In this document: piece by piece, positions 4,840 through 36,320 of the stretch
How positions within the stretch are numbered: position 1 is the first letter of the stretch
How the letters are laid out: the number at the start of each line of letters is the position of its first letter
Assembly: GCA_020849655.1 (NCBI GenBank)
Contig: JADLFU010000133.1
Span: forward strand, 1 to 40,141
Length of the DNA stretch: 40,141 nt
Direction: 5' to 3'
From: Polyangiaceae bacterium
Lineage (GTDB): Bacteria > Myxococcota_A > Polyangia > Polyangiales > Polyangiaceae
Notes under the pieces: generated by a model
Told to the model about the DNA's origin: nothing
What the model saw: the letters and a program-made list of their open reading frames with translations, nothing else
The model's database searches: none
Translations under genes and position numbers: made by a program

Positions 4840-6173
4840 GGGTGACGCGGGGCCGCGGAGCGACGCGCGCGACGGTGCGCCGGGCCGTGTGCCTCGCGTC
4901 CCTCGCCGTCTGCCTCTCGACGACCCTGTCCGCGCGCGCGGACCGCAGGAAACCGTCCCCGGGCGGAGAGCCCGTCGCCACCGAGACGGACGAGCGCGCC
5001 GAGGCGGGGGGACGGTCCGGCGCGCGCGGCAGGAAGGCGCCGCGGGAGCCGCTCGTGCTGCCTCCCGACGCTGACGACGCTGACGCCCCACCTCCGGCCG
5101 CGAACACCGTGGACCGGACGGGAGCGCCCAGGTTCATCGTTCACGTGGACGCCAGCGCGCGGTTTCTCGCCTTTCAGGGCGCGACCGGCGCGCCTGGGTC
5201 CAGCGGAGACAACGAGGTCTACGGGGCCAAGCAAGTGCTGGCGTTTCGAGTCGACCCGGTCGTGGTGGCCGGGGTGCGTGCGGGCATCACCCTCCCGGAC
5301 GCCAAGGGCTGGGAGCGGTTCGGCCTGCGCTCCTCCTACGAGACGGACAGGTTCTACAGGAGCGGCGGGACGATCGACACCAGCGGCAGCCTCGCGTCCA
5401 GCCTCGGCGTGAGGGGGACCTCCGCTGATCTCATCGAAGCGGGCCTGCACTTCGCTGGCGTGGGGTTCGAGGCGGAGGTCGTGCGGTTCGTCGCGGGGCG
5501 GGTCCAGGCGCGAGATGTCAACACGGGGGCCGTCTCCGGGGACTCCCCGCTGGCCTTCACACGTACGCGGCTGGAGGCGAGCTTCGACATCGGCCGCTAC
5601 ATCAGCTCGCCGCCTGCCGAGCGGCCGGTCGCGCAGCGCGACACGATCGTGCTGCTCGCCGACGCCTACTCCGTGACGCTCCCACGGATCGTGTACCTGA
5701 CACAGGAGCGGCCCTACGGGGCGCCAGCCAGCGACGGCACCCAGCCCACGAGGACGACAGTCGTCGTCGAGACCCCGCCGCAGCCGGTCACGCTCTCGAT
5801 CAAGGCCGCCGGCGCGATGGCCAAGGTCGTGGTGGTCCGGGGCGTCTCCGGCACCTGGGCGCTCACGGGCGCCGGCCTGGCGGGCGTGGCCACCCCACAC
5901 TTCGACCTCCCGGCTCGCCTCGGGGAGCCGATGTCAGCCGACAACCGGGTCGCCTCCGGCGGGACGGCGTTCGCCGCGATCGGCCGCCTGGGGACGGAGT
6001 TCGAGGCCCACCTGTCGGGCGGCAGCCCCTCCGTATGGGTCGGAGGGCGGCTCGCGGGTGAGGTCTACTACGCGTCGATCGAGATCCCCGGAGAGGTGTC
6101 AGGCACCGTCGGCTTTCAGGACTTCTTCATCACGGGTCAAGGGTTCGTCTCCGTCCACTTCGCAGGTCGCTGA
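4836..6173 (+). CDS. Predicted exported outer-membrane/beta-rich protein
   Basis: 445 residues from GTG 4836 (overlapping the previous stop as GTGA; GTG 4842 is an alternative). An Arg-rich N-terminus followed by AVCLASLAVCLSTTLSARA is a signal peptide. After a charged, Pro-rich linker (to about residue 95) the protein is made of alternating Gly/aromatic/hydrophobic strands, such as FIVHVDASARFLAF, AGVRAGITLP, FGLRSSYETDRFY and the final FFITGQGFVSVHFAGR. This suggests an outer-membrane beta-barrel or beta-rich surface protein, although the last residue is Arg and not the aromatic typical of barrels. No named family recognised. It sits between two lipoproteins in one transcription unit, consistent with an envelope complex. 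Confidence 0.75.
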   Translation: MRVTRGRGATRATVRRAVCLASLAVCLSTTLSARADRRKPSPGGEPVATETDERAEAGGRSGARGRKAPREPLVLPPDADDADAPPPAANTVDRTGAPRFIVHVDASARFLAFQGATGAPGSSGDNEVYGAKQVLAFRVDPVVVAGVRAGITLPDAKGWERFGLRSSYETDRFYRSGGTIDTSGSLASSLGVRGTSADLIEAGLHFAGVGFEAEVVRFVAGRVQARDVNTGAVSGDSPLAFTRTRLEASFDIGRYISSPPAERPVAQRDTIVLLADAYSVTLPRIVYLTQERPYGAPASDGTQPTRTTVVVETPPQPVTLSIKAAGAMAKVVVVRGVSGTWALTGAGLAGVATPHFDLPARLGEPMSADNRVASGGTAFAAIGRLGTEFEAHLSGGSPSVWVGGRLAGEVYYASIEIPGEVSGTVGFQDFFITGQGFVSVHFAGR

Positions 6174-6181
6174 GGAATACG

Positions 6182-6727
6182 ATGAAGCATCTCTGGCACA
6201 TCCGGCCTGCGGGCTCGGCCATCATCACCCTGGCGCTGCTCGCCTGCGGAGCCCCGGAGTACAAACCCGTTGGCGCCGGAGGTGCCGGCGGCCAGGTCGC
6301 CCAGGGCGGGAGCGCCCAGGGCGGGAGCGCCCAGGGCGGGGGCGCCTCGCCAGCCGCTGGGGCGGCCGGGGCGTCCCCGGCGATCTCCCAGGTGATCGGA
6401 CAGTGTTACACCGTCTATCCCACGCAGAGCGGCTGTGATCACTGCGTCGCGCAGCACCTCCTCGTGGGGGTGCCGAAGGAGCAGACGCTGCCTTGCATCT
6501 GTCAGACCGCCAACTGTCGAGAGGTCTGTGGGGATTCCTACTGTCACCAGCCGGACCCCAACACGACGTTGCCTGGTGACCCTTGTGATCTCTGCATCGT
6601 GCGGGCGCTCGCGGGGGCGTGCGCCGGGACCTGGCAGGACGTCTGCGCGAAATACGCCGGGCTGGCCTCCCCCGACGGCACCCTGTGCGCCTGGCCGTCG
6701 GACGGCCTGGGCGTCTGCGGCCACTGA
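6182..6727 (+). CDS. Small Cys-rich lipoprotein with Gly/Gln/Ser repeat linker
   Basis: 181 residues. It starts 8 bases after the previous stop, with a TGAGGA Shine-Dalgarno-like sequence seven bases before ATG 6182. The signal ends in LALLACG, a clean lipobox (Cys at residue 21). A low-complexity linker follows, encoded by three 15-bp direct repeats of about GCCCAGGGCGGGAGC between roughly 6300 and 6344 (AQGGS units). The C-terminal ~110 residues contain about 14 cysteines in pairs and short loops (CDHC, CICQTANCREVC, CDLC), pointing to a disulfide-rich periplasmic or surface domain. I know of no assigned function for this arrangement. It is the last gene of the set; a GC-rich imperfect hairpin (around 6740-6760) follows, without a T-tract. 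Confidence 0.8.
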   Translation: MKHLWHIRPAGSAIITLALLACGAPEYKPVGAGGAGGQVAQGGSAQGGSAQGGGASPAAGAAGASPAISQVIGQCYTVYPTQSGCDHCVAQHLLVGVPKEQTLPCICQTANCREVCGDSYCHQPDPNTTLPGDPCDLCIVRALAGACAGTWQDVCAKYAGLASPDGTLCAWPSDGLGVCGH

Positions 6728-8524: not shown

Positions 8525-9674
8525 TCAGTCGTCGTCGGCCTGCACGACCCCGCCCTTCTTCAGCGTGCCGCCCGCGGACGCGAGCAGGTACGCCTCGAGG
8601 AAGGGATCGAGGTCCCCATCGAGCACCGCGTGGACGTCGCCCGTCTGCTCGCCCGTGCGCAGATCCTTCACGAGGCGGTACGGCATCATCACGTACGAGC
8701 GGATCTGGTTGCCCCACGCGATGTCGGTCTTGCCGGCGTTGTACTGCGCGACGGCGTCCTCGCGGCGCTGCTGCTCGATGGCGTAGAGCTTCGCCTTCAG
8801 GAGCTTCATCGCGAGCGCGCGGTTCTGGTGCTGGCTGCGCTCGGCGCGGCAGACGATGACGATGTTCGTCGGCAGGTGCTTCAGGCGCACCGCCGTCTCG
8901 ACCTTGTTGACGTTCTGCCCGCCCTTGCCGCCGGCGCGCATCGTCGTGATCTCGACCTCCTCGGGCTTCACCTCGATGTCGATCTCGTCCTCGATGTCGG
9001 GCGTCACGTCGACCGCGACGAACGCCGTCTGGCGGCGCCCCTCGGAGTCGTACGGCGAGATGCGGACGAAGCGGTGCACGCCGATCTCGGCCCGCAGGAA
9101 CCCGTACGCGTTCGGGCCCTCGATGCGGAGCGCGGCGTCGTCGAGGCACTCGCCGCCGTGGTCCTCGCTCGGCTGGATGTCGACGATCTCGACCTTGTAG
9201 CCGTGCGCGGTCGCCCAGCGCGTGTACATGCGCACCATCTCGAACGCCCAGCCCTTCGCGTCCTGGCCGCCTGAGCCCGGGTGCAGCGTGAGGATGGCGT
9301 TCGCGTGGTCGACCGGGCCGCTCAGCATGCGGCGCAGCTCGGCCTTGCGCAGGCGCGACTCGAGCTCCGGCAGCGTGCCCTCGACCTCGGCGCCCATCGC
9401 GGCGTCGCCCTCGGCCTCGGCGAGCGCGTACAGCTCGACGGCGTCGGTGACGTCCTTCGTCAGCTTGTCGGCCGACTGGAGCTTCTCCTCGACCTCGGCG
9501 CGCTTGCGCAGCAGCACCTGCGCCTTCGCAGCGTCGCTCCAGAGGTCGGGGTTGGACGCCTCGGCGTTCAGCTCCTCGAGGTGGCGGGAGAGCTTGGGGA
9601 CGTCAAAGATACCCCCTTAGCGCCTCGAGGCGCCGTGAGAGATCGGCGAGCCTGTCGCGCGTCTCGGTTGCCAT
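8525..9674 (-). CDS. prfB: Peptide chain release factor 2, expressed through a +1 programmed frameshift
   Basis: RF2 terminates translation at UGA and UAA. The gene starts at ATG 9674-9672, encodes 23 codons ending in Leu (CTT, 9608-9606), then meets an in-frame TGA (9605-9603). Skipping one T continues in the +1 frame as [12 protein letters not shown] to the stop at 8525, giving about 382 residues, the usual RF2 size. The GGQ catalytic motif sits at about residues 251-253 ([14 protein letters not shown]). The stop-recognition tripeptide is SPY (about 206-208) where the family consensus is SPF, a conservative but noteworthy change; the surrounding [15 protein letters not shown] is otherwise typical. 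RF2 autoregulates: low RF2 lets the ribosome pause at the UGA and shift frame. A broken copy of the first ~28 codons occurs at 18868-18958. Confidence 0.97.
9603..9620 (-). promoter_or_regulatory. RF2 programmed +1 frameshift site
   Basis: Read on the minus strand, the sequence is AGGGGGTATCTTTGAC. It has the internal Shine-Dalgarno-like AGGGGG, a three-base spacer (TAT), the slippery CTT codon and the UGA stop followed by C, the poor-termination context. This is base for base the arrangement known from Escherichia coli prfB. The upstream reading frame ends at this UGA and the rest of RF2 lies in the +1 frame, so the site is required for the full product. Confidence 0.97.
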
Positions 9675-9782
9675 GGTCGCGCCGATGTACCCGCTTCTCG
9701 CCGGACCGCAAGCAAATCACGGCGCGGCGCGCGGGTTTGGCTGGCCGCGCCCCGGACCGTGCTCCAACGACGCCGCGGTCCC

Positions 9783-9916
9783 GTGGTCCCGAGGGAGATT
9801 CGCCGCAAGCTTCGCCGCATCGAGATCACCACGACGGGGCTCGCGAACGATCAGCTCGCCGGCCGCTGCGCGTCGGTGGTCCGCGGGCAGGGCTCGCGCT
9901 CCGCGAGGTGCGCCGT
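9783..9916 (+). pseudogene. Truncated 5' fragment of a DUF58 gene
   Basis: From the GTG at 9783 the sequence reads VVPREIRRKLRRIEITTTGL and continues ANDQLAGRCASVVRGQG. It matches the first ~38 codons of the intact DUF58 gene at 19067. A single G is missing in the run gcaggggctc (here gcagggctc, around 9887-9893), which destroys the frame, and the homology ends about 8 codons later. No VWA-like core follows. This is a non-functional leftover of the duplication, read in the same direction as the intact gene. Confidence 0.9.
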
Positions 9917-9992
9917 GCGAGCTCGAGGCCGGTCAAGGCGATGGCGCGATTCGTCCTCACGCAGCCGGCGCGCATGCAGTAGGCCTCGCTGC

Positions 9993-10313
9993 ATGAGCTG
10001 GTACGACGTCTTCTCGAAGTTCTACGACGGTTCGCTCGAGCGCCTCTACCTCCCGTTCCGCCAGGCGGCCGCGGAGCGCCTCGCGCTCGCGCCCGGTCAG
10101 TACGTGCTCGACGCGGGCTGCGGCACCGGGCAGAGCCTCGACGTGCTGAGCCCGCCCGTCGGATCCACGGGCAAGGTGATCGGCGTCGATCTCTCGAAGG
10201 GCATGCTCGACGCAGCGAAGCGTCGCGTCGCGTCCAAGGGCTTCGGGAACGTCGAGCTCGCGCAGGGCTCCGTCCTCGAGCTCGATCGCGCGATGCTCGC
10301 GCCGCACCTCCTC
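9993..10313 (+). pseudogene. Truncated class I SAM-dependent methyltransferase
   Basis: From ATG 9993 about 105 residues match the N-terminal half of a small class I methyltransferase: MSWYDVFSKFYDGSLERLYL, then motif I VLDAGCGTGQSLDVL, an acidic GVDLSKGMLDAAKRR (motif II region) and ELAQGSVLEL. Homology breaks off after about base 10290-10313; the frame stays open to 10427 but with Pro/Arg-rich filler and none of the later motifs. A family member would normally have another 90-100 residues. I take it as a gene cut by the same rearrangements that left the repeat copies on both sides of it. An alternative is a very short methyltransferase-like protein, which I consider unlikely. Confidence 0.75.
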
Positions 10314-10741
10314 CCCACCGACCACCGCCGCCCTCGCCGTCGATGTCGCCTCGCCGCCCCACCCACGCGTCATCCCCGCGCCTTGCGGCGCAGCACTGGT
10401 GCGCGCGCACGGTCTTCGGATCGGTGACCATCGATGGCAAAGGCGCGTGCGAGCAGCTCGGTCCCGCTTCTCGCCGGACCGCAAGCAAGTCACGGCGCGG
10501 CGCGCGGGTTTGGCTGGCCGCGCCCCGGACCGTGCTCCAACGACGCCGCGGTCCCGTGGTTCGTCGAGGAGCGCGCGCCTACAGGCGAAGCGTGGTCCTC
10601 TCGGTGGTGGTGGCCCTCGCGCTGGGCTGCGGCGCAAGCGGCTCACGACGCTCGCGCAGGTCTTCTCGATCCACCGCCACGAAGCGTCGGCGGGGCTCGC
10701 GCCCGACCTCGCGGGGTTCGCAGGGCGAGTACAGTCCCCTC
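10314..10741 (+). other. Rearranged non-coding stretch before the SNF2 gene
   Basis: About 430 bases between the broken methyltransferase and the SNF2 start. It contains the third repeat copy (10463-10560). Directly after it, at 10583-10648, is a short in-frame stretch RRSVVLSVVVALALGCGASG that resembles a lipoprotein signal peptide with Cys at 10628, followed by Arg/Ser-rich nonsense. The GTG at 10556 (equivalent to the DUF58 start codon) is in frame with both the signal-like stretch and the SNF2 gene. I regard the stretch as another gene-start remnant rather than the true N-terminus of the SNF2 protein, because a lipidated helicase makes no sense. Confidence 0.5.
10463..10560 (+). repeat. 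Third, 98 bp copy of the prfB/DUF58 intergenic repeat
   Basis: Bases 10463-10560 equal 9690-9787 except for one substitution (A to G at 10489). The copy carries the intergenic spacer and ends just after the DUF58 GTG start codon; none of prfB is included. It is much closer to the left copy (1 of 98) than to the right copy (about 12 of 98), so it arose later and from the left one. It lies 182 bases upstream of the SNF2 start in the orientation in which the original drives DUF58. Confidence 0.93.
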
Positions 10742-13700
10742 GTGAGCAGAACTCGCCCGTCGAGCACGAGAGCTACGCGCGAGCAGCGACATGACAGGCT
10801 CGCCGAGCTCGAAGGTCGCGAGCGGGCCATCGTGGAGCTCGTCTCGGTGTTCTTCGAAGGGGTCCCTCGGACGGACCTCGCCAGCGCGCTCGGTCGCGTC
10901 GAGGAGCGCGTGCAGGGACGTGCGCCTCGCGGCGCGGAGATCCTGCCGCTCCTCGAGTCGCTCGCGGCGCGAGGCTGGCTCGTCGGAGATCCGCAGTGGC
11001 GGGTGCAGCCGGACCTCGCGCACGGCGTGACGCTCGAGCTCGCGGGCCAGGGTCGGCTCGCGTCGATGGCCGAGGCCGTGCGCGCGGTGTGGCCGGCGGT
11101 GCCGGCGGAGCGCGCGGGGTGGTGGACCTTCGTGCGTGAGGCGCGCATCGAGCTCTACAAGGGGAACTGGGAGGCCGCGCGCGAGCGTGCGGTCGATGGG
11201 ATGTTCACGGAGATCTGCCATCCCTTCGATCGCGCCTGGGTTGCCGCACTGCCAGCCGATCTGCGCGTTCGAGCGCTGAGCGAGGTGCTCGACGCCTCGG
11301 TCCGCGCGCTCTCGGACCGGAGCGACGCGCTCGAGCTCCTCGAGGCGAGCTGGCGGGATGACGCCGACCAGGTGAGCGATGGTAGTCACCATCTCCTCGT
11401 CGAGCAGCTCCTCCTGCGCGGCAGGCTCGAGGACGCGGCGCGAGTCCTTCGCGGGCGCACGTCGGTTCAAGCGGAGGTCTGCGCCGGCCGGCTGCTCGCG
11501 GTCCAGGGCAAGTGGAGCGAGGCGAACGCCGCGTACGAGCATGCGCTCACGAGCTACCTGAAGAAGGTCGGCAAGCGTAGCCCGTTCTTCCCCGATCGAG
11601 GTGGCCTCTTCTTCGTCCTCTCGCTCCTCGCGGCCGGCGGGCCCAAGAACCTGACGCGCGCCAAGCAGCTCGCGACGAGCGCCCAGCGCAAGGACGTGAG
11701 CAGCTACCCCGGCGCGCACGCCATCCTGGCCGAGGCCGCGTCGGTGCTCACAGGCGAGCGTGACGCCGAGTTCGTCCGCTACATCGGCGACGGGCTCCGT
11801 GTCGAAGACATGGACCCCGTCGCGCTCTTGCTGAGCATCGCCGCCGCGCAGTGGATCGGGAGCGCGGTCGACGCAGAGGCTCGAGCCGAGCTCGCCAAGC
11901 GCAGCGTGGCGGCGGACGCCGCGGGCTATGCGTGGATCGCGACGCAGGCCGCGGATGCGGTGCTCGCGGCGGGCGGCGAGGACCCGGACGGGCGCCTGTC
12001 CTCGCTGCGCGCAGGCCTCGTGGGGTGCAGCGTCACGCGCGCCGTGACCCGCAAGGAGAGCTGGTCGGAGTCCCTCGATGCCCTGCTCGAGATCGCGACG
12101 CCTGCGCGGTCGCGGCGCGCGCCCGAGGCCGCCGAGCCCACGAGCGCGACGCGGCTCGCGTGGGTCGTCGCGGAGAACACCTGGGGCTTCTCCGTCACCC
12201 CGCGCGAGCAGTCACGCACCAAGAGCAGCTGGTCCAAGGGACGCCCGGTGGCGCTCGAGCGCCTCGCGACCGAGTCAGCCGCGATGGACTTCCTCACCAG
12301 GTCGGACAGGGCGGCGTGCGCTGCGATCGAGCAGCATGTGGAGACGCGGTACTACGGCCGTTACCGCAACGTGTCCTACACGCTCGACGCCGCGGCCGCG
12401 CTCCGTGCCCTCCTGGGCGCGACCAACGTGTTCACGGAAGTCCGAGGTGAGCTCGTGCCGCTCGAGGTCCGCGAGCGCCAGGCCAAGCTGAAGGTGGAGC
12501 GCGTGGCGGCGGCGGGAGGCTTCCGGATCCGGCTCGATCCGATGCCGAGGCACGACCGCGAGACGACCATGCTCGCGAGCGCAGGACCGACGACGCTCGA
12601 GATCGTCGAGCTCGGGGACGAGCACCGCGAGATCGCGAAGGTGCTCGGAAAGAAGGGGCTCGAGCTACCCGCGACGTCGGAGCTTCGCGTCCGGGAGGTC
12701 TTGGCGGCGCTGTCTCGGATCGTTCCGTCGGACGCCGAGCTCGGCCCGGGAAACGCCTCGACGCCAGCGTGTCGCGAGTCCGGCGACCTCGTCGCCGCCG
12801 ACCCTGCGCCGACGTTCCTCGCCCGCCCGCTCGGCGAGGGCGTCACGCTCCAGGCGATCGTCCGCCCGCTCGGGATCGGCGGGCCTACCCTCCCGCCGGG
12901 CGGTGGCGGAACAGCCACGTTCGCGGAGATCGACGCGAGGCGTGTCCGCGCCGAGCGCGATCTCGCGGAGGAGGCGCGACAGCTCTCGACCGTGATCGAC
13001 TCCTGTCCCGCGATCGCATCGGCAGAGCGCTCCGAGGCCGGCCATGCGCTGCGCGATCACGACGCCGCCCTCTCGGCGCTCGTCGAGCTGCGCGCGGCCA
13101 AGGCGCGCGTCGAGTGGCCCGACGGCGGCGCGATCGACGTCACGGACGAGGTCGCTCCGCGCGCGCTCGCGATCTCGCTGCGCGCGACCGCCGAGGGCTT
13201 CGAGGCCGACGGAACGCTCGATGTCCCGGGCGGGCGGGCGCTCGCCCTCTCCACCGTGCTCGGCTACCTCGACGCGTCGCCGGGACGCTTCCTCCGGCTC
13301 GCTGATGGCCGCTACCTCGCGCTGAGCCGCGACATCCGCCGACGTCTCGACGAGCTCCGAGCGCTCGGTGAGCGAGGTGCCAAGCGCCTGCGGTTCCACC
13401 CGCTCCTCGTCCCCGAGGTCGAGGAGGCGCTCGACGGGGCGCGCCTCGACGCCGACCAGCCCTGGCGCGCGCAGCGCGATCGTCTCACCGCCACCGGCGT
13501 CGAGAGCGAGGTGCCGTCCACGTTCCGCGGCGAGCTGCGCGCGTTCCAGCTCGACGGCTTCCGCTGGCTCGCGCGCCTGGGTCGCTGGGGCGCGGGCGCT
13601 TGCCTCGCCGACGAGATGGGCCTCGGCAAGACCGTCCAAGTCCTCGCGCTCCTCCTCTCGCGCGCGCCCGAGGGGCCGAGCCTCGTCGTGGCCCCGACGT

Positions 13701-14977
13701 CGGTCCTCTCGAATTGGGCGGAGCACGCGGCGCGCTTCGCGCCGACCCTCCGCGTGCGCACGTACGCGGGCGAGGATCGCGCCGGCACGCTCTCGGGCCT
13801 CGGGGCGTTCGACTTGGTGCTGACGAGCTACACGCTCCTCTCGACGGATGTCGACGCGCTCGCGGCCCTCCGGTTCGTGGTCGCCGTCATGGACGAGGCG
13901 CAGGCGATCAAGAACCCCGATTCGCAGCGGGCCCAGGCCGCTTGCCGGCTCGTCGCGGAGCAGCGCGTCGTCGTCACCGGGACGCCCGTCGAGAATCGGC
14001 TCGAGGATCTCTTCAGCCTCTTCCGCTTCGCGAGCCCCGGCCTCCTCGGGACGCGCGCGAGCTTCGATGTCCGCTTCGCTCGGCCCATCGAGCAGGGGCA
14101 CGATCGCGCCGCGCGCGAGCGCCTCCGCCGCATGGTGAGGCCGTTCCTCCTGCGTCGCACCAAGACGAGCGTGCTCGAGGAGCTGCCCGCGCGCACCGAG
14201 GTCACGCTGCGGGTCGAGCTCGCGCGCCGGGAGGTGGCGCTCTACGAAGCGATCCGCGAAGAGGCGCTCCGCGGGCTCGAGGCAGAGGGCGGGCTCGAGG
14301 CAGAGCGGGGCGGACCGAGTCGCCGCATGCACCTCCTGGCCGCGATCACCCGCCTCAGGCGCGCAGCGTGCAGCGAGCGGCTCGTCCTGCCGAGCGAGCA
14401 GCCGCGTCCGTCGCGCGGTCGATCACGGGCCTCTGCCGCGAAGGACGTCGCCGCGAGCGCGACGAGCGCGAAGCTCGAGGCGCTCGGGGACCTCCTCGAC
14501 GAGATCCTGCCGAACAAGCACAAGGCGCTCGTCTTCAGCCAGTTCGTCGATCACCTCGCGCTCGTGAAGGAACTCCTCGACGCTCGAGGGATCTCGCATC
14601 TCTACCTCGACGGCGGCACACCGCGCGCGAAGCGCAGCGAGGCGATCGATGCGTTCCAGGCGGGGCGCGCGGACGTCTTCCTGATCAGCCTGAAGGCCGG
14701 GGGCTTCGGGCTCAACCTCACCGCTGCCGACTACGTGATCCACATGGACCCGTGGTGGAACCCCGCAGTCGAGGACCAAGCCTCCGATCGCGCGCACCGC
14801 ATCGGACAGGCCCGCCCCGTGACCATCTACCGCATCGTCGCGAAGGACACGATCGAGGACCGCATCGTCGCCCTGCACCGCGACAAGCGCGAGCTCGCCG
14901 ACGCCCTCCTCGACGGCGCCGAGAGCCCCGCGCGATTGGGCGAGGAGGCCCTGCTCGAGCTGATCCGCGCTCGATGA
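10742..14977 (+). CDS. Large SNF2/HepA-family DNA-dependent ATPase
   Basis: 1411 residues from GTG 10742; the open frame runs further upstream, but there it crosses the repeat and has non-coding composition. GTG 10833 is another possible start. The last ~480 residues are a full SNF2 motor: DEMGLGKT (Walker A, about residue 956), TSYTLL, DEAQAIKN (Walker B, about 1051), TGTPVENRLEDLFSL, then SLKAGGFGLNLT and DRAHRIGQ of the second RecA lobe. The usual Thr in AGGTGLNLT is Phe here. The preceding ~900 residues are mostly helical, with a TPR-like part (about 150-400) and the beta-rich SNF2-associated region before the motor. Such proteins remodel protein-DNA or polymerase-DNA complexes, and related ATPases occur in phage-defence loci, but no nuclease or methylase partner is intact here. 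It lies inside the block flanked by the duplicated junction. Confidence 0.9.
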   Translation: MSRTRPSSTRATREQRHDRLAELEGRERAIVELVSVFFEGVPRTDLASALGRVEERVQGRAPRGAEILPLLESLAARGWLVGDPQWRVQPDLAHGVTLELAGQGRLASMAEAVRAVWPAVPAERAGWWTFVREARIELYKGNWEAARERAVDGMFTEICHPFDRAWVAALPADLRVRALSEVLDASVRALSDRSDALELLEASWRDDADQVSDGSHHLLVEQLLLRGRLEDAARVLRGRTSVQAEVCAGRLLAVQGKWSEANAAYEHALTSYLKKVGKRSPFFPDRGGLFFVLSLLAAGGPKNLTRAKQLATSAQRKDVSSYPGAHAILAEAASVLTGERDAEFVRYIGDGLRVEDMDPVALLLSIAAAQWIGSAVDAEARAELAKRSVAADAAGYAWIATQAADAVLAAGGEDPDGRLSSLRAGLVGCSVTRAVTRKESWSESLDALLEIATPARSRRAPEAAEPTSATRLAWVVAENTWGFSVTPREQSRTKSSWSKGRPVALERLATESAAMDFLTRSDRAACAAIEQHVETRYYGRYRNVSYTLDAAAALRALLGATNVFTEVRGELVPLEVRERQAKLKVERVAAAGGFRIRLDPMPRHDRETTMLASAGPTTLEIVELGDEHREIAKVLGKKGLELPATSELRVREVLAALSRIVPSDAELGPGNASTPACRESGDLVAADPAPTFLARPLGEGVTLQAIVRPLGIGGPTLPPGGGGTATFAEIDARRVRAERDLAEEARQLSTVIDSCPAIASAERSEAGHALRDHDAALSALVELRAAKARVEWPDGGAIDVTDEVAPRALAISLRATAEGFEADGTLDVPGGRALALSTVLGYLDASPGRFLRLADGRYLALSRDIRRRLDELRALGERGAKRLRFHPLLVPEVEEALDGARLDADQPWRAQRDRLTATGVESEVPSTFRGELRAFQLDGFRWLARLGRWGAGACLADEMGLGKTVQVLALLLSRAPEGPSLVVAPTSVLSNWAEHAARFAPTLRVRTYAGEDRAGTLSGLGAFDLVLTSYTLLSTDVDALAALRFVVAVMDEAQAIKNPDSQRAQAACRLVAEQRVVVTGTPVENRLEDLFSLFRFASPGLLGTRASFDVRFARPIEQGHDRAARERLRRMVRPFLLRRTKTSVLEELPARTEVTLRVELARREVALYEAIREEALRGLEAEGGLEAERGGPSRRMHLLAAITRLRRAACSERLVLPSEQPRPSRGRSRASAAKDVAASATSAKLEALGDLLDEILPNKHKALVFSQFVDHLALVKELLDARGISHLYLDGGTPRAKRSEAIDAFQAGRADVFLISLKAGGFGLNLTAADYVIHMDPWWNPAVEDQASDRAHRIGQARPVTIYRIVAKDTIEDRIVALHRDKRELADALLDGAESPARLGEEALLELIRAR

Positions 14978-15846: not shown

Positions 15847-18621
15847 TCAGGGCGGCGGCGCGAAGTAGATGGTGTCGCTGCGCGTGCCCCAGTTGCAGCC
15901 GTTCAGGCCCGCGAGCGCAGGCAGCAAGCACCCGACGCCGCTGCAGAACCCGACGAGGCCGCCCGGCAGCTTGTACTGCACGACGGGCAACCAGCCCGGG
16001 GGGGAGTTGGTGCCGACATAGCCGACCCGGACCCCCGACCACCCGGACGGACACGCGAGGTTCCCCCCGATGACCATCGTGTGCAGCGTGCCCGCGGGGT
16101 TCGTGCAGCGGTTCATCTCGACCAGACCCGGGCCGCTCGCCGCGGCGGCGTACGTGAACGCCCAGGTCTTCGAGTTGGCCGTCCCCGAGGTGCCGTTCGA
16201 GTCGTTCGGCGCGAGGCAGCTCGACGCCTGGGCCGAGAACGAATTCGTCGCGTTCATGTTGATCTGCTTCTTGCAGCTGGCGCTGCCGTTGCCGACCACG
16301 CCGTCGCAGTCCAGATCCTTCGACGGATCGCACGTGTCGGTGCCCGGATCGACGGAGCCCGAGCATGCCCCCCAGACGGTGCCGCCGCCCGAGGTGACGC
16401 AGGTCTGGCTGCCCGCCTTGCAGACGCCGACGCCGTCGAGACCCGGGTGGGTGTCGCACGCGGCGACGTCGCCGGCCTTGCAGGTGCAGACGCCATCCAT
16501 CGTGTTGTCCGCCTTGCCGTCGCAGTCCTTGTCGCTCGACGAAGAGCAGTCGCGCTTCGACATCTCGACGGAGCCGACGCACGAGCCCCACGCGCCGTCG
16601 AGCCCGCAGGTCTTCACGCCCGTCCTGCAGACGCCGACGTTGGCCGCGCCCGCCGCGTTCAGGCCGCCGCAGACCGCGATCGCCCCGGCGAGGCACGCGG
16701 GTGCGACGCAGCGCCGCACCGCGCCCGCGGCCGTCGACAGGCCGTCGTCGGGCGTCAGTGAGCAGTCGTTGTCCTTGCCGTCGCACGCGTCGGCGCGCGT
16801 CCCATAGCTGCTGTCGTCGTGCGTCGCGAGCGGCCGCTTCGTGAACGTCGGCCCCGCCCACTCGACCAGCAGCGAGCCCGAGCCCGTGTACTCGTAGTAG
16901 TCCACCTGCACGTCGTGGGGCCCGACGGCCAGCGTGGCGTCTGCGCTCGTCGCGACCGGCGTCGTCGAGTTGGACCAGTGATCGACGACGAGCGCGCCGT
17001 CGACGTACACGCGGACGCCGTCGCCGGCGGTCGCGGTGAACGTGTACGTCCCCGCGTCCGCGACGAGCACCGTGCCGGTCGCGCGCAGCACGAAGTAGTC
17101 CTTCGACGAGCCGGGGAACGGCGTCGACGTGCCCCACGACCAGTCGAGCGTGTGCGCGGTCGTCGTCTTCGACGGTTGCTCGGTCGCCGACGGCGCGGCG
17201 GAGTAGTTGAGCAGGTTGCGCCCGAAGAGCGCGACGCTCCACGGCGCCTCGAGCCCGACCTGCGTCGTCACGGGGCCGTCCCAGTTGCCCGGGTACCGCG
17301 CGGCGTCCGCGTCGTCGCAGTCCTGCTGGGTGATCGGAGTCGTCGTCCAGTGGGAGCTGCAGGGCACCGTCAATCCGAAGCACTCGGGAGCCGTCGTGCC
17401 GGGTTGTGCGCACTGTTTCAGCGTCTTCGGGACGGGCAGCGCGTGACCGTCGCCGTCCTCGTCGAACGTCCACGTCGCCACGCCCGAGACGTTGTCGTCG
17501 ATCGAGCCGTTGCAGTCGTTGTCCTTGCCGTCGCACACCTCCGTCTGCCCGGGGCGCCGAGACGCGTCGGTGTCGTCGCAGTCGTCGTCGACGAGGCTCT
17601 GCTTCCACGCGCTCGGCGTGACCTTGCAGCTCGCGCACTCCGCGGGCGGCGTGGTGGGTGGAGAGCACGCGAGGACGGGCAGGTACCCCTTCGCGGCGTG
17701 GTAGTCGTTGTCGCCGTCCCACCACCAGTACACACGGTTGATGGCGTCGGACTCGTCGGTCAGGCCGTCACAGTCGTTGTCCTTCCCGTCGCAGGCCTCG
17801 CCCGTCGGCTGGCGCGCGTCGGTGCACGGCCCCCAGCTTCCGTTCTGTTGGCAGGTCTGGGAGCCGTACTCACACTCACCCTTCGGCGCGCCGGTCGGCC
17901 AGGAGATGGGCTTGCCGCTCGAGTCTTCGCTGCACGCGCGCACGTCGCCGGGCGCGCAGGTGCAGGTCGTGCCGTCCGCCAGCGCGCCGTCGTCCGCCTT
18001 GCCGTTGCAGTCCTGGTCGACGCCGTCGCCGCAACGATCGGGGTGGCCGTCGCCCCTCGGTCCGTCCCAGCCTGCGGGTTTGGTGTCGGGATCACTGTCA
18101 TCGCAGTCGTCGCCGACCACGATGATGACGCCCGCGAGCTTCGACAGGCACGTCTTCGCGGTGTGGCCGTCGGCGTCCTTGTCGCGCGCCACGAACCTGC
18201 AGGTCTTCGGTCCCGGATCGCACACGCCGCGCGCGCAGCCGGGCGGCGACGTCTCCGGCACGAAGCCCGTGCAGTCCGCGTCGATCGCGCACGGGGTCGC
18301 GGCGGACCCGCCACCGCCGGACGCACCGGCTGCGCCGCCGCCCGCCTGCCCCGCGGCGCCTGCCTTGCCCGCAGCGCCCGCCTGCCCAGCCTGCCCCGCA
18401 GCGCCCGCCTGCCCAGCCTGACCTGCTCCTCCGGCCTTGCCCGCGGCGCCGGCGCCCGCCTGCCCGCCGCCACCCTTGCCCGCGCTGGCCCCGGCGCCCG
18501 CGCCCGCGGCGCCGCCCGACGCCGACGCGGGGGAGGTCGCCTCGTCTCCGCTCCCGCCGCAGGCGCCGAGCACGAGGAAGGCGAGAGACAGCGTGGCGAG
18601 CGGGGTGTGGTGACGACGCAT
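15847..18621 (-). CDS. MopE-like Cys/Asp-rich lipoprotein with an inserted PA14 domain
   Basis: 924 residues from ATG 18621, preceded by GGGAGG eight bases upstream. The signal ends LVLGAC (Cys21), so it is a lipoprotein. Residues 22-105 are a Gly/Ala/Gln/Lys linker of AGQAG/AGKAG units. Then come repeated motifs of the putative metal-binding MopE type: DCDDSDPDT (about 172), CGDGVDQDCNG (about 196), CDGKDNDCDG (about 277), DCDDTDAS (about 347), CDGKDNDCNG (about 362), DCDDADAA (about 434). A PA14-like carbohydrate-binding domain is inserted at about 446-585 (DYFVLRATGTVLVADAGTYT, DGVRVYVDGALVVDHW), after which the Cys/Asp repeats resume. The last ~130 residues form a separate Cys-paired domain. 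The Asp-rich loops suggest Ca2+ or another metal; a PA14 domain suggests glycan binding on the cell surface. Function not established. Confidence 0.88.
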   Translation of the reverse strand: MRRHHTPLATLSLAFLVLGACGGSGDEATSPASASGGAAGAGAGASAGKGGGGQAGAGAAGKAGGAGQAGQAGAAGQAGQAGAAGKAGAAGQAGGGAAGASGGGGSAATPCAIDADCTGFVPETSPPGCARGVCDPGPKTCRFVARDKDADGHTAKTCLSKLAGVIIVVGDDCDDSDPDTKPAGWDGPRGDGHPDRCGDGVDQDCNGKADDGALADGTTCTCAPGDVRACSEDSSGKPISWPTGAPKGECEYGSQTCQQNGSWGPCTDARQPTGEACDGKDNDCDGLTDESDAINRVYWWWDGDNDYHAAKGYLPVLACSPPTTPPAECASCKVTPSAWKQSLVDDDCDDTDASRRPGQTEVCDGKDNDCNGSIDDNVSGVATWTFDEDGDGHALPVPKTLKQCAQPGTTAPECFGLTVPCSSHWTTTPITQQDCDDADAARYPGNWDGPVTTQVGLEAPWSVALFGRNLLNYSAAPSATEQPSKTTTAHTLDWSWGTSTPFPGSSKDYFVLRATGTVLVADAGTYTFTATAGDGVRVYVDGALVVDHWSNSTTPVATSADATLAVGPHDVQVDYYEYTGSGSLLVEWAGPTFTKRPLATHDDSSYGTRADACDGKDNDCSLTPDDGLSTAAGAVRRCVAPACLAGAIAVCGGLNAAGAANVGVCRTGVKTCGLDGAWGSCVGSVEMSKRDCSSSSDKDCDGKADNTMDGVCTCKAGDVAACDTHPGLDGVGVCKAGSQTCVTSGGGTVWGACSGSVDPGTDTCDPSKDLDCDGVVGNGSASCKKQINMNATNSFSAQASSCLAPNDSNGTSGTANSKTWAFTYAAAASGPGLVEMNRCTNPAGTLHTMVIGGNLACPSGWSGVRVGYVGTNSPPGWLPVVQYKLPGGLVGFCSGVGCLLPALAGLNGCNWGTRSDTIYFAPPP

Positions 18622-18744
18622 GTGAAGTCCTCCCTGAACACTCGAGGGTATCGGGCGGCGCGGCGCGTTCGCAAGCGCCGGTCTCCGGGGTGGGGAACCC
18701 CGCCGCCAACCTGCGGCGTGCATGGGATCACCATCCGCGGCGTG

Positions 18745-18872
18745 GCGAGGGGGTCGACGTGCAGCCGGGCGACGGCCGTCGCCGCCCTCGGCACGGCCGT
18801 GACGACGGCCGACGAATCGCCGTCGCGCTCGCGGTACGCACCGTCGAGGAAGACGACGTGCAAGTGTGGGAG
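18745..18872 (-). pseudogene. Possible IS91-like transposase fragment abutting the right junction repeat
   Basis: On the minus strand, immediately beyond the end of the prfB remnant, the sequence reads LPHLHVVFLDGAYRERDGDS and continues for about 25 more residues. HLHxxxLDGxY is reminiscent of the His-hydrophobic-His motif region of IS91-type (Y2, rolling-circle) transposases, often written LHFHxLxLDGVY. There is no start, no catalytic tyrosine and no terminal sequence here, so at best this is a scrap of about 40 codons. The remaining bases 18622-18744 between it and the MopE-like gene hold no recognised feature. Confidence 0.4.
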
Positions 18873-18958
18873 AGCTTGGGGACGTCAGGGAGCCCCCCTC
18901 GGCGCCTCGAGGCGGCGCCGAGAGACCGGCGAGCCTGTCACGCGTCTCCGGTCGCCCT
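18868..18958 (-). pseudogene. Broken 5' fragment of prfB
   Basis: This aligns with codons 1-28 of the intact prfB. The start codon has become AGG (18958-18956), small indels put a TGA into the early frame, and the sequence stops at the point where the transposase-like scrap begins. The RF2 frameshift cassette is still visible in decayed form on the minus strand: AGGGGG, then GCTCCC in place of TATCTT, then TGAC. Nothing of the RF2 body follows, so it cannot be functional. Confidence 0.9.
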
Positions 18959-19199
18959 GGCCGCGCCGATGGGCCCGCTTCTCGTCGCACCGCGAGCAAA
19001 TCACGGCACAGCGCGCGGTTCTGGCTGGCCGCGCCCCGGACCGTGCTCTACAAACGCCGCGGTCTCGTGGTCCCGAAGGAGCTCCTCCGCAAGCTTCGCC
19101 GCATCGAGATCACCACGACGCGGCTCGCGAACGATCAGCTCGCCGGCCGCTACGCGTCGGTGATCCGAGGGCAGGGGCTCGCGTTCCGCGAGGTGCGCC
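18868..19199 (+). repeat. Right copy of the ~330 bp prfB/DUF58 junction duplication
   Basis: It is the partner of 9587-9916 in direct orientation. It contains the decayed prfB start, the 108-base spacer and the first ~44 codons of the functional DUF58 gene. The spacer therefore is the native leader of the DUF58 operon. The distance between the two copies is about 9.28 kb. Confidence 0.93.
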
Positions 19200-19948
19200 C
19201 GTACCAGGCGGGCGACGACGTCCGCGCGATCGACTGGAACGTCTCCGCGAGGATGAACGAGGCCTACGTCAAGGTCTTCGTCGAGGAGCGCGAGATGACC
19301 GTGATGCTCGTCGTCGACGCGTCGCGCTCCCAGCGGTTCGGCACGACGCGCGCGACGAAGATCGAGGTCGCCGCCGAGGTGACGGCGCTCTCCGCGTTCT
19401 CGGCCATCCGCGGCAACGACCGCGTCGGGCTCATCCTCGCGACCGACCGCGTCGAGAAGATCGTGCCGCCGAAGAAGGGCGAGAAGCACGCGATGCGCGT
19501 CGTGCGCGAGGTGCTCGGCTTCGAGCCGGCGCGCGCGGGCACCGATCTGCGCGAGGCCCTCTCCGCGCTCGTGAAGGTGACGAAGCGCCGCAGCGTCGCG
19601 TTCGTCGTCAGCGACTTCTTCACGAGCGGGTTCGAGCGCGCGCTCGGGCTCGCCGCGGCGAAGCACGACGTCATCCCGGTGATGCTCGTCGACGCGCGCG
19701 ACGAGGCGCTGCCGGACGTCGGCCTCGCGGAGTTCGAGGATCTCGAGACGGGTGAGCTCGTCGTCGTCGACACCTCCAGCCGGCGCGTGCGCGAGGCCTA
19801 CGCGGAGGACGTCCGCGCCGCGCGCGCCGAGAAGGTCACGCTGTTCCGCAAGCTCGGGCTCGACGTCGTCACCATCGACACGGGCGGCAGCTTCGTCGCG
19901 CCCATCCGCGATCTTTTCGCGCGCCGCGCCCGGAGGGCCCGGAGGTGA
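19067..19948 (+). CDS. DUF58 domain protein, first gene of a Bat-type operon
   Basis: 293 residues from GTG 19067 (VVPKELLRKLRRIEI); GTG 19043 is in frame but precedes the conserved start. The DUF58 signature RPYQAGDDVRAIDWNVSARM is near residue 45-65, followed by EEREMTVMLVVDASRSQRFG, a VWA-like fold with a DxSxS-type start. There is no membrane segment, so it is cytosolic or peripheral. DUF58 proteins nearly always accompany MoxR AAA+ ATPases and VWA membrane proteins, and are thought to act in chaperone-like assembly or maturation of envelope complexes; the exact role is unknown. No moxR precedes it: the native upstream neighbour was divergent prfB, as the duplicated junction shows. The stop overlaps the next GTG start. 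Confidence 0.93.
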   Translation: MVPKELLRKLRRIEITTTRLANDQLAGRYASVIRGQGLAFREVRPYQAGDDVRAIDWNVSARMNEAYVKVFVEEREMTVMLVVDASRSQRFGTTRATKIEVAAEVTALSAFSAIRGNDRVGLILATDRVEKIVPPKKGEKHAMRVVREVLGFEPARAGTDLREALSALVKVTKRRSVAFVVSDFFTSGFERALGLAAAKHDVIPVMLVDARDEALPDVGLAEFEDLETGELVVVDTSSRRVREAYAEDVRAARAEKVTLFRKLGLDVVTIDTGGSFVAPIRDLFARRARRARR

Positions 19949-26900: not shown

Positions 26901-29900
26901 TCAGGCGCGACGGCGGCGACGACGACCGAGCGCCGCGGCGACCAGCACCCCGAGCCCGCCGAGCGCCGCGGAGCTCTGGCCGCCGGGTCCGATCGCGCAG
27001 CCGCCCTCGGCCTCCGAGCCGTCGAGCCCGAACCCGCCGCTCGCGCCGCCCTCGGGCACACCCGCGCCCGTCGAGCCGGCGCTCGGCGCCGCGCCCGCGC
27101 TGCCCGCCTTCGCGCCGCCCGCGCCCGTCGAGCCGCCGGCCCCTGCCTTCGCGCCGCCAGTGCCCGACGCGCCGCTCGCGCCCGCCTTCGCCCCTGCTGC
27201 GCCCGACGCGCCGCTCGCGCCCGCCTTCGCCCCTGCTGCGCCCGACGCGCCGCCCGCCCCGGCCTTCGCGCCGCCCCCGCCCGACGCGCCGCTCGCGCCC
27301 GCCTTCGCGCCGCCCGCGCCCGACGCGCCTGCAGCGCCGGAGGCGCCGCCCGCGCCGCTCACGCAGGCGCCGCCGCTGCACAGGAGTCCGCTCGCGCAGT
27401 CCGCCGCGGTGACGCAGGTCGTCTTGCACTGGCCGTTGGCGCCGCAGGCGAAGTCGCCGCACGACTTCTGGGTCGGCGCGCCGCACTTGCCCCCGCCGTC
27501 GCACAGCGGCGCGCTGCTCTGCACGCCGGCCGAGCAGGACGCCGGACCGCACGCGACCGCGACCCCGGGGAAGGTGCACGCGTCGCCCTTCGTCCCGTCG
27601 CAGGTCGCCCCGCACGGGCCGGAGCCTGTGCAAGCCTGCTTGCCCGCGTGAGGCGCGCCGGTCACCGGCGCGCACGTCCCCAGCTTGCCGGGGACGTTGC
27701 ACGCCTCGCACTGCCCCCCGCACGAGGTCGCGCAGCAGACGCCGTCCGCGCACACGCCGCTCGCGCACTGCGCGGCGCTCTGGCAGTCCTTGCCGTCCTC
27801 CACCTTGGACTTGCAGATCCCGCCCGAGCAGAAGCTGCCGGGCTGACAGTCGACGTCCGTCACGCAGTCACCGGCGCACAGGCCCGTCACCGCGCACTGG
27901 AAGGCGCCGCACGACTGCTGCTGCGCGGGCGGGCAGCTGCCGGTGCCGACGCAGCTCGCCGCCAGCGTCGCCGTGGCGTTGGCGCAGCTGGCGGCGCGGC
28001 ACTCGACAGCGGCGCCGGGGAAGCTGCAGCCGTCCTTCTTCACGCCGTCGCACGCGCCGCCGCACGCCGAGCCGTCCGACGCGCACTGCGCGCGGGCGTT
28101 GTGCGGGGTGCCGGTGACAGCGGTGCACGACCCGACCGCGCCCGCGTTGTCGCACGCCTCGCACTGACCGTCGCACTTCGAGTTGCAGCAGACGCCGTCG
28201 ACGCAGTTGCCGGAGACGCACTCGCTCGCCTTCGAGCAGACCCCGCCGTCGACGATCTTGTCCTTGCACACCCCCGCCGAGCAGAACTTCGACCCGCCCT
28301 GACAGTCGGCGTCGACCGTGCAGTTGCCCGCGCAGGCGGCGCCCGAGCACTTGAAAGGCGCGCAGTCCTGGGTGGCGACGGCGGGACACTTGCCCGCGCC
28401 GTCGCAGGCCGCCGCGACGACCGCGACGTCGTTCGCGCAGCTCGGCGCGCGGCACGTCGTCGCCGCGCTCGGGTAGCTGCACGTCGCGGTGACGGCGCCG
28501 TCGCACACCCCGCCGCAGGGCGAGCCGTCGGTGACGCAGGCGGGGCGGGCGCCCCGCGGCGCGCCGGAGACCGGGCTGCACGTGCCGACCTTGCCGGGCT
28601 GGTCACAAGCTTCACACTGCCCGTTGCACGCGCTCCCGCAGCACACGCCGTCGACGCAGTTGCCCGACGCGCACTGGCCCGCGTTCTGGCAGGCGGTGCC
28701 GGGGTCGAGCTTCGGCTTGCAGATGTTCGACGAGCAGTAGAACCCGGGCGAGCAGTCGCTGTTGACGGAGCAGTCGCCCTTGCAAGTGAAGGCGTCCTGG
28801 CAGACGAACGGCGCGCAGCTCTGCGTCGTCAGCGCCGGGCACTTGCCCGCGCCGTCGCAGTTGGCGCCGATGGTCGCCTGGTTCGTCCCCGCGTCGCACG
28901 CGGCCGCCCGGCAGCTCGTGCTCCCGCTCGGGTAGGTGCACGCGAGCGTCTGCACGCCGTTGCACGCGCCGCCGCAGAGCGAGCCGTCCGTCGTGCACGC
29001 CGCGCGCGCGCCGTGGGGGGCGCCGGTGGCGGGCGAGCAGGTGCCCACCGAGCCCGGATTGTCACAAGCTTCACACTGCCCGGCGCACGCCTTGTCGCAG
29101 CACACGCCGTCGACGCAGCTGCCGCTCAGGCACTCCGTGGCCGCCTGGCACGCTGCGCCCGGGGCCTTCTTCGGCTGGCAGACGCTGGCGTTGCAGTACG
29201 ACGAGGCCAGGCAGTCGACGTCGGCGGCGCAGGAGGACTTGCAGGCCGTCGGGCCGCACACGTAAGGGTTGCAGCTGCTGGTGACCGCCCCGGGGCAGGC
29301 GCCGACCGCGCCGTCGCAGGAGGCCGCCTGCGTGGCGACGCCGCCCGCGCAGCTCGCCGCGCGGCAGGAGGTGCCGGCGGGCACGACCACGTCGGCCGGG
29401 CACAGGCCGTTGACGCCGCAGATCTCCTCGACGTCGCAGTTGCCGACCGCAGGACGACACACGGTCCCGGGCGTCGCGACCGCGTCGGCGGGGCAGTCGT
29501 TGCCGGCGCCGTCGCACGTCTCGGGGATGTCACAGCTCGCGCTCGCCGCGGGCCGGCAGACGGTGGCGTTGCCGAGCTTCACGTCGGCGGGGCACGCCGC
29601 GCTCGCGCCGTCGCAGACCTCGATGGCGTCGCAGACGCCAGCCGCGCCGCGGCACGGGGTGTTCGCTGGCGTGCGGGCGTCCGCGGGGCAGTTGTTGCCG
29701 ACCCCGTCGCAGCTCTCGGCCGGATCGCACGCGCCTGCGCTCGCGCGGCACTGGCCGGAGAGCTTCCCGTCGCCCGGGCAGGCCGCGGTGACGCCGTCGC
29801 ACACCTCGACCGCGTCGCAGGCGCCCGCGCTCGCGCGACACGTGGTGCCAGCGTTGCCCGCCGGGTGCTGGCACGCGTTCGCGGCGCCGTTGCACTGGTC

Positions 29901-35474: not shown

Positions 35475-36320
35475 ATGCGCCGCCTCGCCTCCCTCGTCCT
35501 CGCGTCGCTGGGGCTCGCCGTCGCCGGGCAGGGCTGCGCCTTCGAGCAGTACGGGTCGGGGGAGCGCAACGCGGGCCGCCCGACGGGCGCGGGTAGCGGC
35601 GGCGTCGAGGGCGCGGCAGGCGAAGGAGGCGCGACGGCAGGCGCAGGGCAAGCGGGCGCGGCAGGCGACGCAGGGCAAGCGGGCGCGGGGCAAGCGGGCA
35701 CGAGCGGCGCTGCGGGTCAAGCGGGCGCGGGGCAAGCAGGCGCAGGGCAAGCGGGCGCAGGGCAAGCGGGCGCGGCAGGCGACGCAGGGCAAGCGGGCGC
35801 GGGTCAAGCGGGCGACGCAGGGCAGGCCGGCGCAGGCGGCGCCGCGGGGCAGGCCGGCGCGGCAGGCGACGCAGGGCAGGCCGGCGCAGGGCAGGCCGGC
35901 GCAGGGCAGGCCGGCGCGGGCGGCGACGCAGGTCAGGCGGGCGCGGGGCAAGCGGGCGCGGGCGGCGCCGCGTGCGTCCCGGGGATGGTCCCGTGCGATC
36001 TCGACTGCGACGGGCACCTCCGCGCCGATCCCGACTGCGCGGGCGGTGACGACTGCTGCGACTCCGACGCGAACACCTTCCCTGGCCAGTCGGGCTGGTT
36101 CTCGAGCGCGAACAGCTGCGGATCGTTCGACTACGACTGCGACACCAAGGCGGTCCAGCGCACGGGCCAGGGCTCGAAGTGCGTCGGCTGCTGGTTCAGC
36201 TGCTGCTTCGACGCAGGCTACGAGGGCACGCCGCCCGCCTGCGGCGTCTCGGGCCCGATCACCGGCTGCGGCGACTGGTGCAAGGACACCGACGGCACGC
36301 TCGTGCAGCAGTGTCATTGA
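35475..36320 (+). CDS. Lipoprotein with long AGQAG repeat and Cys-rich C-terminal domain
   Basis: 281 residues from ATG 35475. The signal LVLASLGLAVAGQGCAF ends in a lipobox-like AGQGC (Cys at residue 21). Residues ~35-165 are almost only Gly, Ala, Gln and some Asp in AGQAG/AAGDAGQAG units, encoded by the tandem repeat listed separately. The C-terminal ~115 residues have about 17 cysteines (CDLDCDG, CDSDANTFPG as in MopE-type loops, CVGCWFSCCFDAG, CGDWC), so it probably binds metal or is disulfide-bonded. It shares the linker style with the MopE-like and Cys-rich proteins, suggesting a common export or surface role. The domain is otherwise unknown to me. Confidence 0.85.
   Translation: MRRLASLVLASLGLAVAGQGCAFEQYGSGERNAGRPTGAGSGGVEGAAGEGGATAGAGQAGAAGDAGQAGAGQAGTSGAAGQAGAGQAGAGQAGAGQAGAAGDAGQAGAGQAGDAGQAGAGGAAGQAGAAGDAGQAGAGQAGAGQAGAGGDAGQAGAGQAGAGGAACVPGMVPCDLDCDGHLRADPDCAGGDDCCDSDANTFPGQSGWFSSANSCGSFDYDCDTKAVQRTGQGSKCVGCWFSCCFDAGYEGTPPACGVSGPITGCGDWCKDTDGTLVQQCH
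35600..35972 (+). repeat. 15-bp tandem repeat array encoding AGQAG units
   Basis: Variants of GCGGGGCAAGCGGGC and GCAGGGCAGGCCGGC occur about 20 times with interruptions encoding AAGDAG. Codon use differs between sub-blocks (caa for Gln to about 35820, then cag), which points to at least two rounds of expansion from different parental units. Confidence 0.85.

Follow-up and report, generated by a model that had tools for sequence, protein, structure and literature searches.

In the 40,141-nucleotide stretch of a Polyangiaceae contig analysed here (the window), a 98-bp intergenic spacer occurs three times, and we favor, with moderate confidence, the reading that the third copy is a scar, recent and probably without function, left by a rearrangement next to a decayed element of the IS91 family (HUH/Y2 rolling-circle), and not a leader that drives the SNF2 helicase gene behind it. 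If so, the region would be a small, clear case of IS91-family remnants and short duplications building chimeric regions in a high-GC genome.

The three copies lie on the forward strand at positions 9690–9787 (left), 10463–10560 (third) and 18974–19071 (right). Pairwise comparison of the left and third copies finds a single mismatch in 98 positions, A to G at offset 26, which separates exact runs of 26 and 71 bases, and a chance match is excluded by the expectation value for this pair (E = 6e-45 when the region is compared with the window by blastn). Set against the right copy, the left shows 12 differences in 98 positions and the third 13. The original prediction had put the left and third copies at 97 of 98 identical positions and the left and right copies at about 12 differences, and both figures are borne out. 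Judged by one difference against 12, the third copy arose long after the right one. Its identity to the left copy breaks off sharply on both sides, with base 10560 as the exception. The genome-wide hunt for further 98-mers that had been proposed earlier returned three places only (E ≤ 0.001) in the organism's own draft genome (G000; 6.56 Mb in 307 contigs, 4.17% contamination), all of them in the window and thus on one contig inside 9.5 kb. No exact match to a 27-base core that all copies share turned up in our genome contig collection, from which the own genome is possibly absent, and no RNA family matches positions 9500–10800 up to E = 1.

The left and right copies are parts of a longer direct repeat (9586–9914 and 18868–19199, both on the forward strand) with 88.25% identity over 332 columns, and each arm contains the 5′ end of prfB, the spacer and the 5′ end of a DUF58 gene. 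In the left arm the DUF58 portion is broken; in the right arm it is intact and the prfB portion is decayed. The prfB gene itself (RF2; 8525–9674, reverse strand; Pfam PCRF and RF-1) begins with an ATG at 9674–9672, at the left copy, and its product has 95% amino acid identity to that of G001, the sole other genome of the genus examined, which served as an outgroup. Reading of the sequence finds the RF2-type frameshift site, AGGGGGTATCTTTGAC, intact at 9617–9602; the counterpart at the right copy (18884–18899) reads AGGGGGGCTCCCTGAC and is degraded, a dead site beside the live one. The outgroup prfB is 93% identical at the DNA level, and its homology ends at window position 9729, where another gene follows. 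In the aligned columns, the left copy agrees with the outgroup against the right at 19 sites and the reverse occurs at none; a further 116 columns are alike in all three, nine have left and right agreeing against the outgroup and one differs in all. Because of this one-sided count, the left copy is to be read as the native prfB side and the right copy as decayed there. At the sole site that separates the left and third copies, the outgroup carries the base of the left copy, so the change sits on the third. This one site supports copying from left to third, as well as the earlier proposal that the third copy is recent and closest to the left. When 59 genomes (own included) were queried with positions 9561–9987, the spacer was found outside the own genome only in the outgroup, where it forms the opening portion of the prfB leader. 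The duplicated piece had also been described as the native DUF58 leader up to its GTG start codon; it does extend as far as that codon, yet what is native to the left copy is prfB, and the intact DUF58 gene stands at the right copy.

That intact gene (19067–19948, forward strand; Pfam DUF58, E 2.3e-81) has orthologs in relatives. A motif search of the upstream DNA places moxR immediately 5′ of DUF58 in five of seven relatives (G018, G019, G020, G015 and G022) and did not find it there in G007 and G014. The closest moxR in the own genome is on a different contig (C232:23521–23913, L078), and the closest in the outgroup (C86:2659–3642, L097) has no DUF58 gene behind it; the outgroup DUF58 gene is interrupted by a contig end. 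Since the two genes are neighbours in most of these relatives and moxR lies on C232 and C86 in the two genomes of the genus, their separation probably predates the divergence of G000 and G001, and the present case shows the location of a DUF58 gene after its parting from moxR.

A search of the own genome with positions 9890–10462 gave 22 matches, among which those to 10329–10462 are dispersed on several contigs. The matches covering 10301–10464 correspond to the 3′ part of IS91-family elements, and other short ones fall in a methyltransferase gene. Full homologous copies in the genome score above the Pfam Y2_Tnp cut-off, with five Y2_Tnp matches on contigs C219, C182 and C123. When these elements were compared by BLAST with 80 kb of the contig, two places only were found at E < 1e-4 (the best reversed-sequence control reached 3.8e-4). 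Remnant A (10331–10464, reverse strand) is a decayed 3′ part of a transposase gene plus downstream DNA with internal deletions, and it matches the elements on the three contigs only through short pieces of their 3′ part. The best piece lies at 10398–10433 (E 7.7e-8) and others reach 10331 and 10464, the piece 10331–10402 by itself giving just E 1.4e-4. Remnant B (18718–18870, reverse strand; E 1.2e-16 and 1.2e-11) is a decayed 3′ end, extending to 18816, joined to a transposase piece (18817–18870) that encodes PHLHVVFLDGAYRERDG in frame, which contains the HUH motif. BLAST delimits remnant B to 18735–18870, and positions 18718–18734 come from the element-end alignment alone. The end of remnant A, at 10464, lies 2 bases inside the third copy, a junction that had been overlooked in the earlier work, and that of remnant B, at 18870, lies 3 bases inside the right repeat arm. 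With both remnants on the reverse strand, it is the upstream side of the transposase that meets the left edge of the duplicated DNA in each case.

Alignment of element ends, drawn from contigs with matches in the own-genome DNA search or the Y2_Tnp search and so giving a lower bound on copy number, shows that several genome copies have a common 3′ terminus near TGCATAGGAAAATCAAACG, which we take to resemble the oriIS of ISCR elements. This terminus is decayed in remnant B and absent in remnant A, and a terIS at the 5′ side is lacking in both, each being cut inside the transposase gene. The likeness to the IS91 family (IS91, IS801, ISCR) therefore lies in the Y2_Tnp transposases of the genome, the in-frame motif of remnant B and the common 3′ end, whereas both remnants here have suffered truncation and decay and cannot transpose by themselves. 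Their ends are too decayed to display the fixed tetranucleotide next to which elements of this family insert. We also note that on contig C123 (L054) three IS91-family 3′ ends occur within 6.4 kb, at 45–134, 6150–6239 and 6326–6414, and one of these seems to lack a transposase gene.

Between the repeat arms lies an island with a truncated methyltransferase gene, the SNF2 helicase gene and a gene for a protein with MopE motifs and a PA14 domain. The first is the 5′ part of its gene (9993–10300, right border approximate, forward strand; Pfam Methyltransf_25 positions 1–59 of 97, E 1.8e-12), cut where remnant A begins. The third (15847–18621, reverse strand; Pfam Cu-binding_MopE and PA14) encodes a lipoprotein-like N terminus; it starts about 100 bases past the decayed 3′ end of remnant B (18718–18735) and is oriented away from that end. 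A like geometry is described for the outward promoters of ISCR1 (PMC6218425). A direct repeat around foreign-looking cargo is what a segmental duplication bracketing an acquired island would look like. Here, however, no integrase or tRNA site was found (0 tRNAs in the window), and the arms are a divergent gene junction.

At the right edge of the third copy, the 16 bases at 10560–10575 (forward strand) are identical to DUF58 positions 19277–19292. No other exact match of that length to DUF58 exists in the window once the gene itself and the left copy are set aside (some 39,000 positions). By score the match is not significant (16 of 300 shuffles reach it), and other 882-base segments of the window often show from zero to several exact 16-mer matches; the notable part is its exact position. 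DUF58 similarity does not rise above shuffled sequences either past the 16-mer (29 of 300 reach the score) or past position 9914 in the left copy (35 of 300). The placement suggests that the third copy formerly ran on into DUF58 and then lost about 205 bases. Because the left copy is now without the part corresponding to 19277–19292, the third copy would in that event derive from a longer form of the left copy.

These observations can be arranged into a sequence of events that begins at the IS91-family ends. Copying beside such ends, or recombination there, would have duplicated the prfB–DUF58 junction around the cargo. In a later event, a fresh copy of the left spacer would have been joined to the truncated transposase of remnant A through the 2-base overlap, and a deletion of about 205 bases would then have removed the DUF58 part of the third copy. 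At least two events are required, since the third copy is far younger than the main duplication, and this requirement counts against the scheme. In its favor, the only two IS91-family matches in 80 kb each reach 2–3 bases into a copy from the same side, the genome holds the five Y2_Tnp matches, the left arm is native and the right arm decayed, and the third copy, with one change against 12, is by far the younger of the two duplicates. The cargo is also patchy: the N-terminal 600 residues of the SNF2 protein have matches in six of 59 genomes including the own, two of them strong (G046, 46%; G055, 41%) and three weak, and no homolog reaches into the third copy.

Known behaviour of the family bears on this scheme in both directions. 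IS91-family elements move by rolling-circle transposition from oriIS to terIS (PMC6218425). IS801 has been reported to mobilise the DNA directly upstream of it, in lengths of 290–1431 nt, and the transposase-upstream side that it mobilises is the side that adjoins the copies here; in the same report, most IS801 genome fragments are ascribed to reorganisation rather than to one-ended transposition (PMC3189936). By the criteria of that report, a product of one-ended transposition needs a right end that is intact and a left end that resembles ter (PMC3189936), and remnant A has no right end while that of remnant B is decayed. Thus neither remnant has both of the ends that would prove transposition. 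The 16-base DUF58 piece, which exceeds today's left copy, is likewise a poor fit with simple copying from it. The geometry fits copying or recombination at IS91-family ends, as far as the arrangement of the sequences can tell.

A close rival to rearrangement at the remnant is that ordinary replication or repair produced the third copy, either when the polymerase switched template over a short range or through a tandem duplication of the 773-base stretch and a later deletion, with the IS91-family remnant as a passive bystander. The 773-base distance between the left and third copies, their direct orientation, the high identity and the 2–3-base overlaps at the junctions are all what such a process would leave, and we regard it as a tentative but serious possibility. 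It gives no account of why IS91-family remnants adjoin two copies on the same side, when none is found elsewhere at E < 1e-4 in the 80 kb.

It is less likely that the third copy is a product of misassembly or of mixed strains, with the join made at the exact stretch of 71 bases, in which case the true order might be prfB–spacer–SNF2, with the 773-base stretch located elsewhere or missing in some cells. The fragmentation and contamination of the draft lend this some weight, and 71 bases falls within the range of assembler word lengths. Against it, one base distinguishes the left copy from the third, the sequence on either side of the third copy is unlike that around the left one, and the window sits inside a 113-kb contig.

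The original prediction had suggested that the third copy supplies a promoter to SNF2, and we consider it very improbable that a transplanted prfB–DUF58 spacer promoter drives this gene in the way that the right copy would drive the DUF58 group. The idea draws on the right copy standing at the head of an intact DUF58 gene, with moxR, the usual neighbour on that side, located elsewhere, and on the third copy ending 182 bases 5′ of the point where SNF2 likely starts, both being on the forward strand. A consensus scan restricted to sigma-70-like promoters found no site in any copy, and a terminator consensus scan also gave none. The youth of the third copy explains its identity without selection, and what the outgroup shares is the region upstream of prfB, a region serving the opposite strand. 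On reading the sequence, the GGGTACAT motif of the prfB-side leader, also common to the outgroup, is lost at the third copy's border. A leader active at the third copy would be a natural promoter transplant, but the present data give no support for one. In an elaboration that we consider equally improbable, an intact IS91-family element mobilised truncated fragments in trans, and these twice took the prfB–DUF58 leader at their upstream side, re-homing the DUF58 group, parted from moxR, and the acquired SNF2 gene so that one leader came to serve three unrelated genes.

The small mobile unit that had been put forward as an alternative to the promoter is not supported, given the copy number. With about 100 non-coding bases the 98-mer resembles miniature mobile repeats (MITE or REP-like), but these occur as many dispersed copies, whereas the one genome searched holds its three on the same contig, and the third copy is bounded by an IS91-family remnant on one side and by what may be a deletion on the other.

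The reading as a scar draws in part on the start of the SNF2 gene, whose homologous part begins some 180 bases past the third copy. The gene (10742–14977, forward strand; Pfam SNF2-rel_dom and Helicase_C) encodes a protein of about 1411 amino acids whose long N-terminal half has no Pfam domain, and its likely start, GTG 10742, is placed by 80 homologous loci and by codon-position GC. These loci were aligned from among at least 584 full-protein relatives with 34–41% identity in cyanobacteria, Methylococcales and others. When the open frame from 10343 is compared with them, alignment starts at residue 95 (10625) or later in all 80 and at residue 130 or later in 72, and none shows homology into the third copy. 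Codon-position GC is 0.79/0.76/0.75 in the copy, 0.65/0.77/0.77 in 10561–10741 and 0.81/0.54/0.85 in 10742–11100, so that a coding-type pattern begins at about 10740.

The GTG at 10556 had been proposed as a start codon in frame with SNF2 and with a lipoprotein-signal-like stretch (10583–10648). The frame holds, in that this GTG is in phase with the 10343–14977 open reading frame, but that is a mere open frame in 74% GC DNA, and a role as SNF2 start finds no backing in any of the 80 loci. An SNF2 start at GTG 10556 with a lipoprotein signal was rejected on the grounds that homologs begin near 10742 and the coding GC pattern does likewise, and the lipoprotein-like stretch is for the same reason not supported as SNF2 sequence. 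Since the homologs stop short of the copy and coding GC appears only from about 10740, the in-frame GTG and the stretch behind it are best seen as chance occurrences. The alignments may nonetheless be compatible with a short, unconserved N-terminal extension of SNF2. The case carries a warning that long open frames in high-GC genomes make fused genes look real.

As to the protein itself, the NCBIfam cut-offs for DpdE, ZorD and DrmD are not reached (scores of 40.6 against 500, 222 against 1500 and 51.5 against 610, respectively), but the PADLOC DpdE models give a strong match over the second half of the protein. Elsewhere in the window, tandem-like repeats in coding DNA, with 39-base spacing and units of the GGGCAAGCGGGC type, occupy positions 27048–27377 and 35609–35957.
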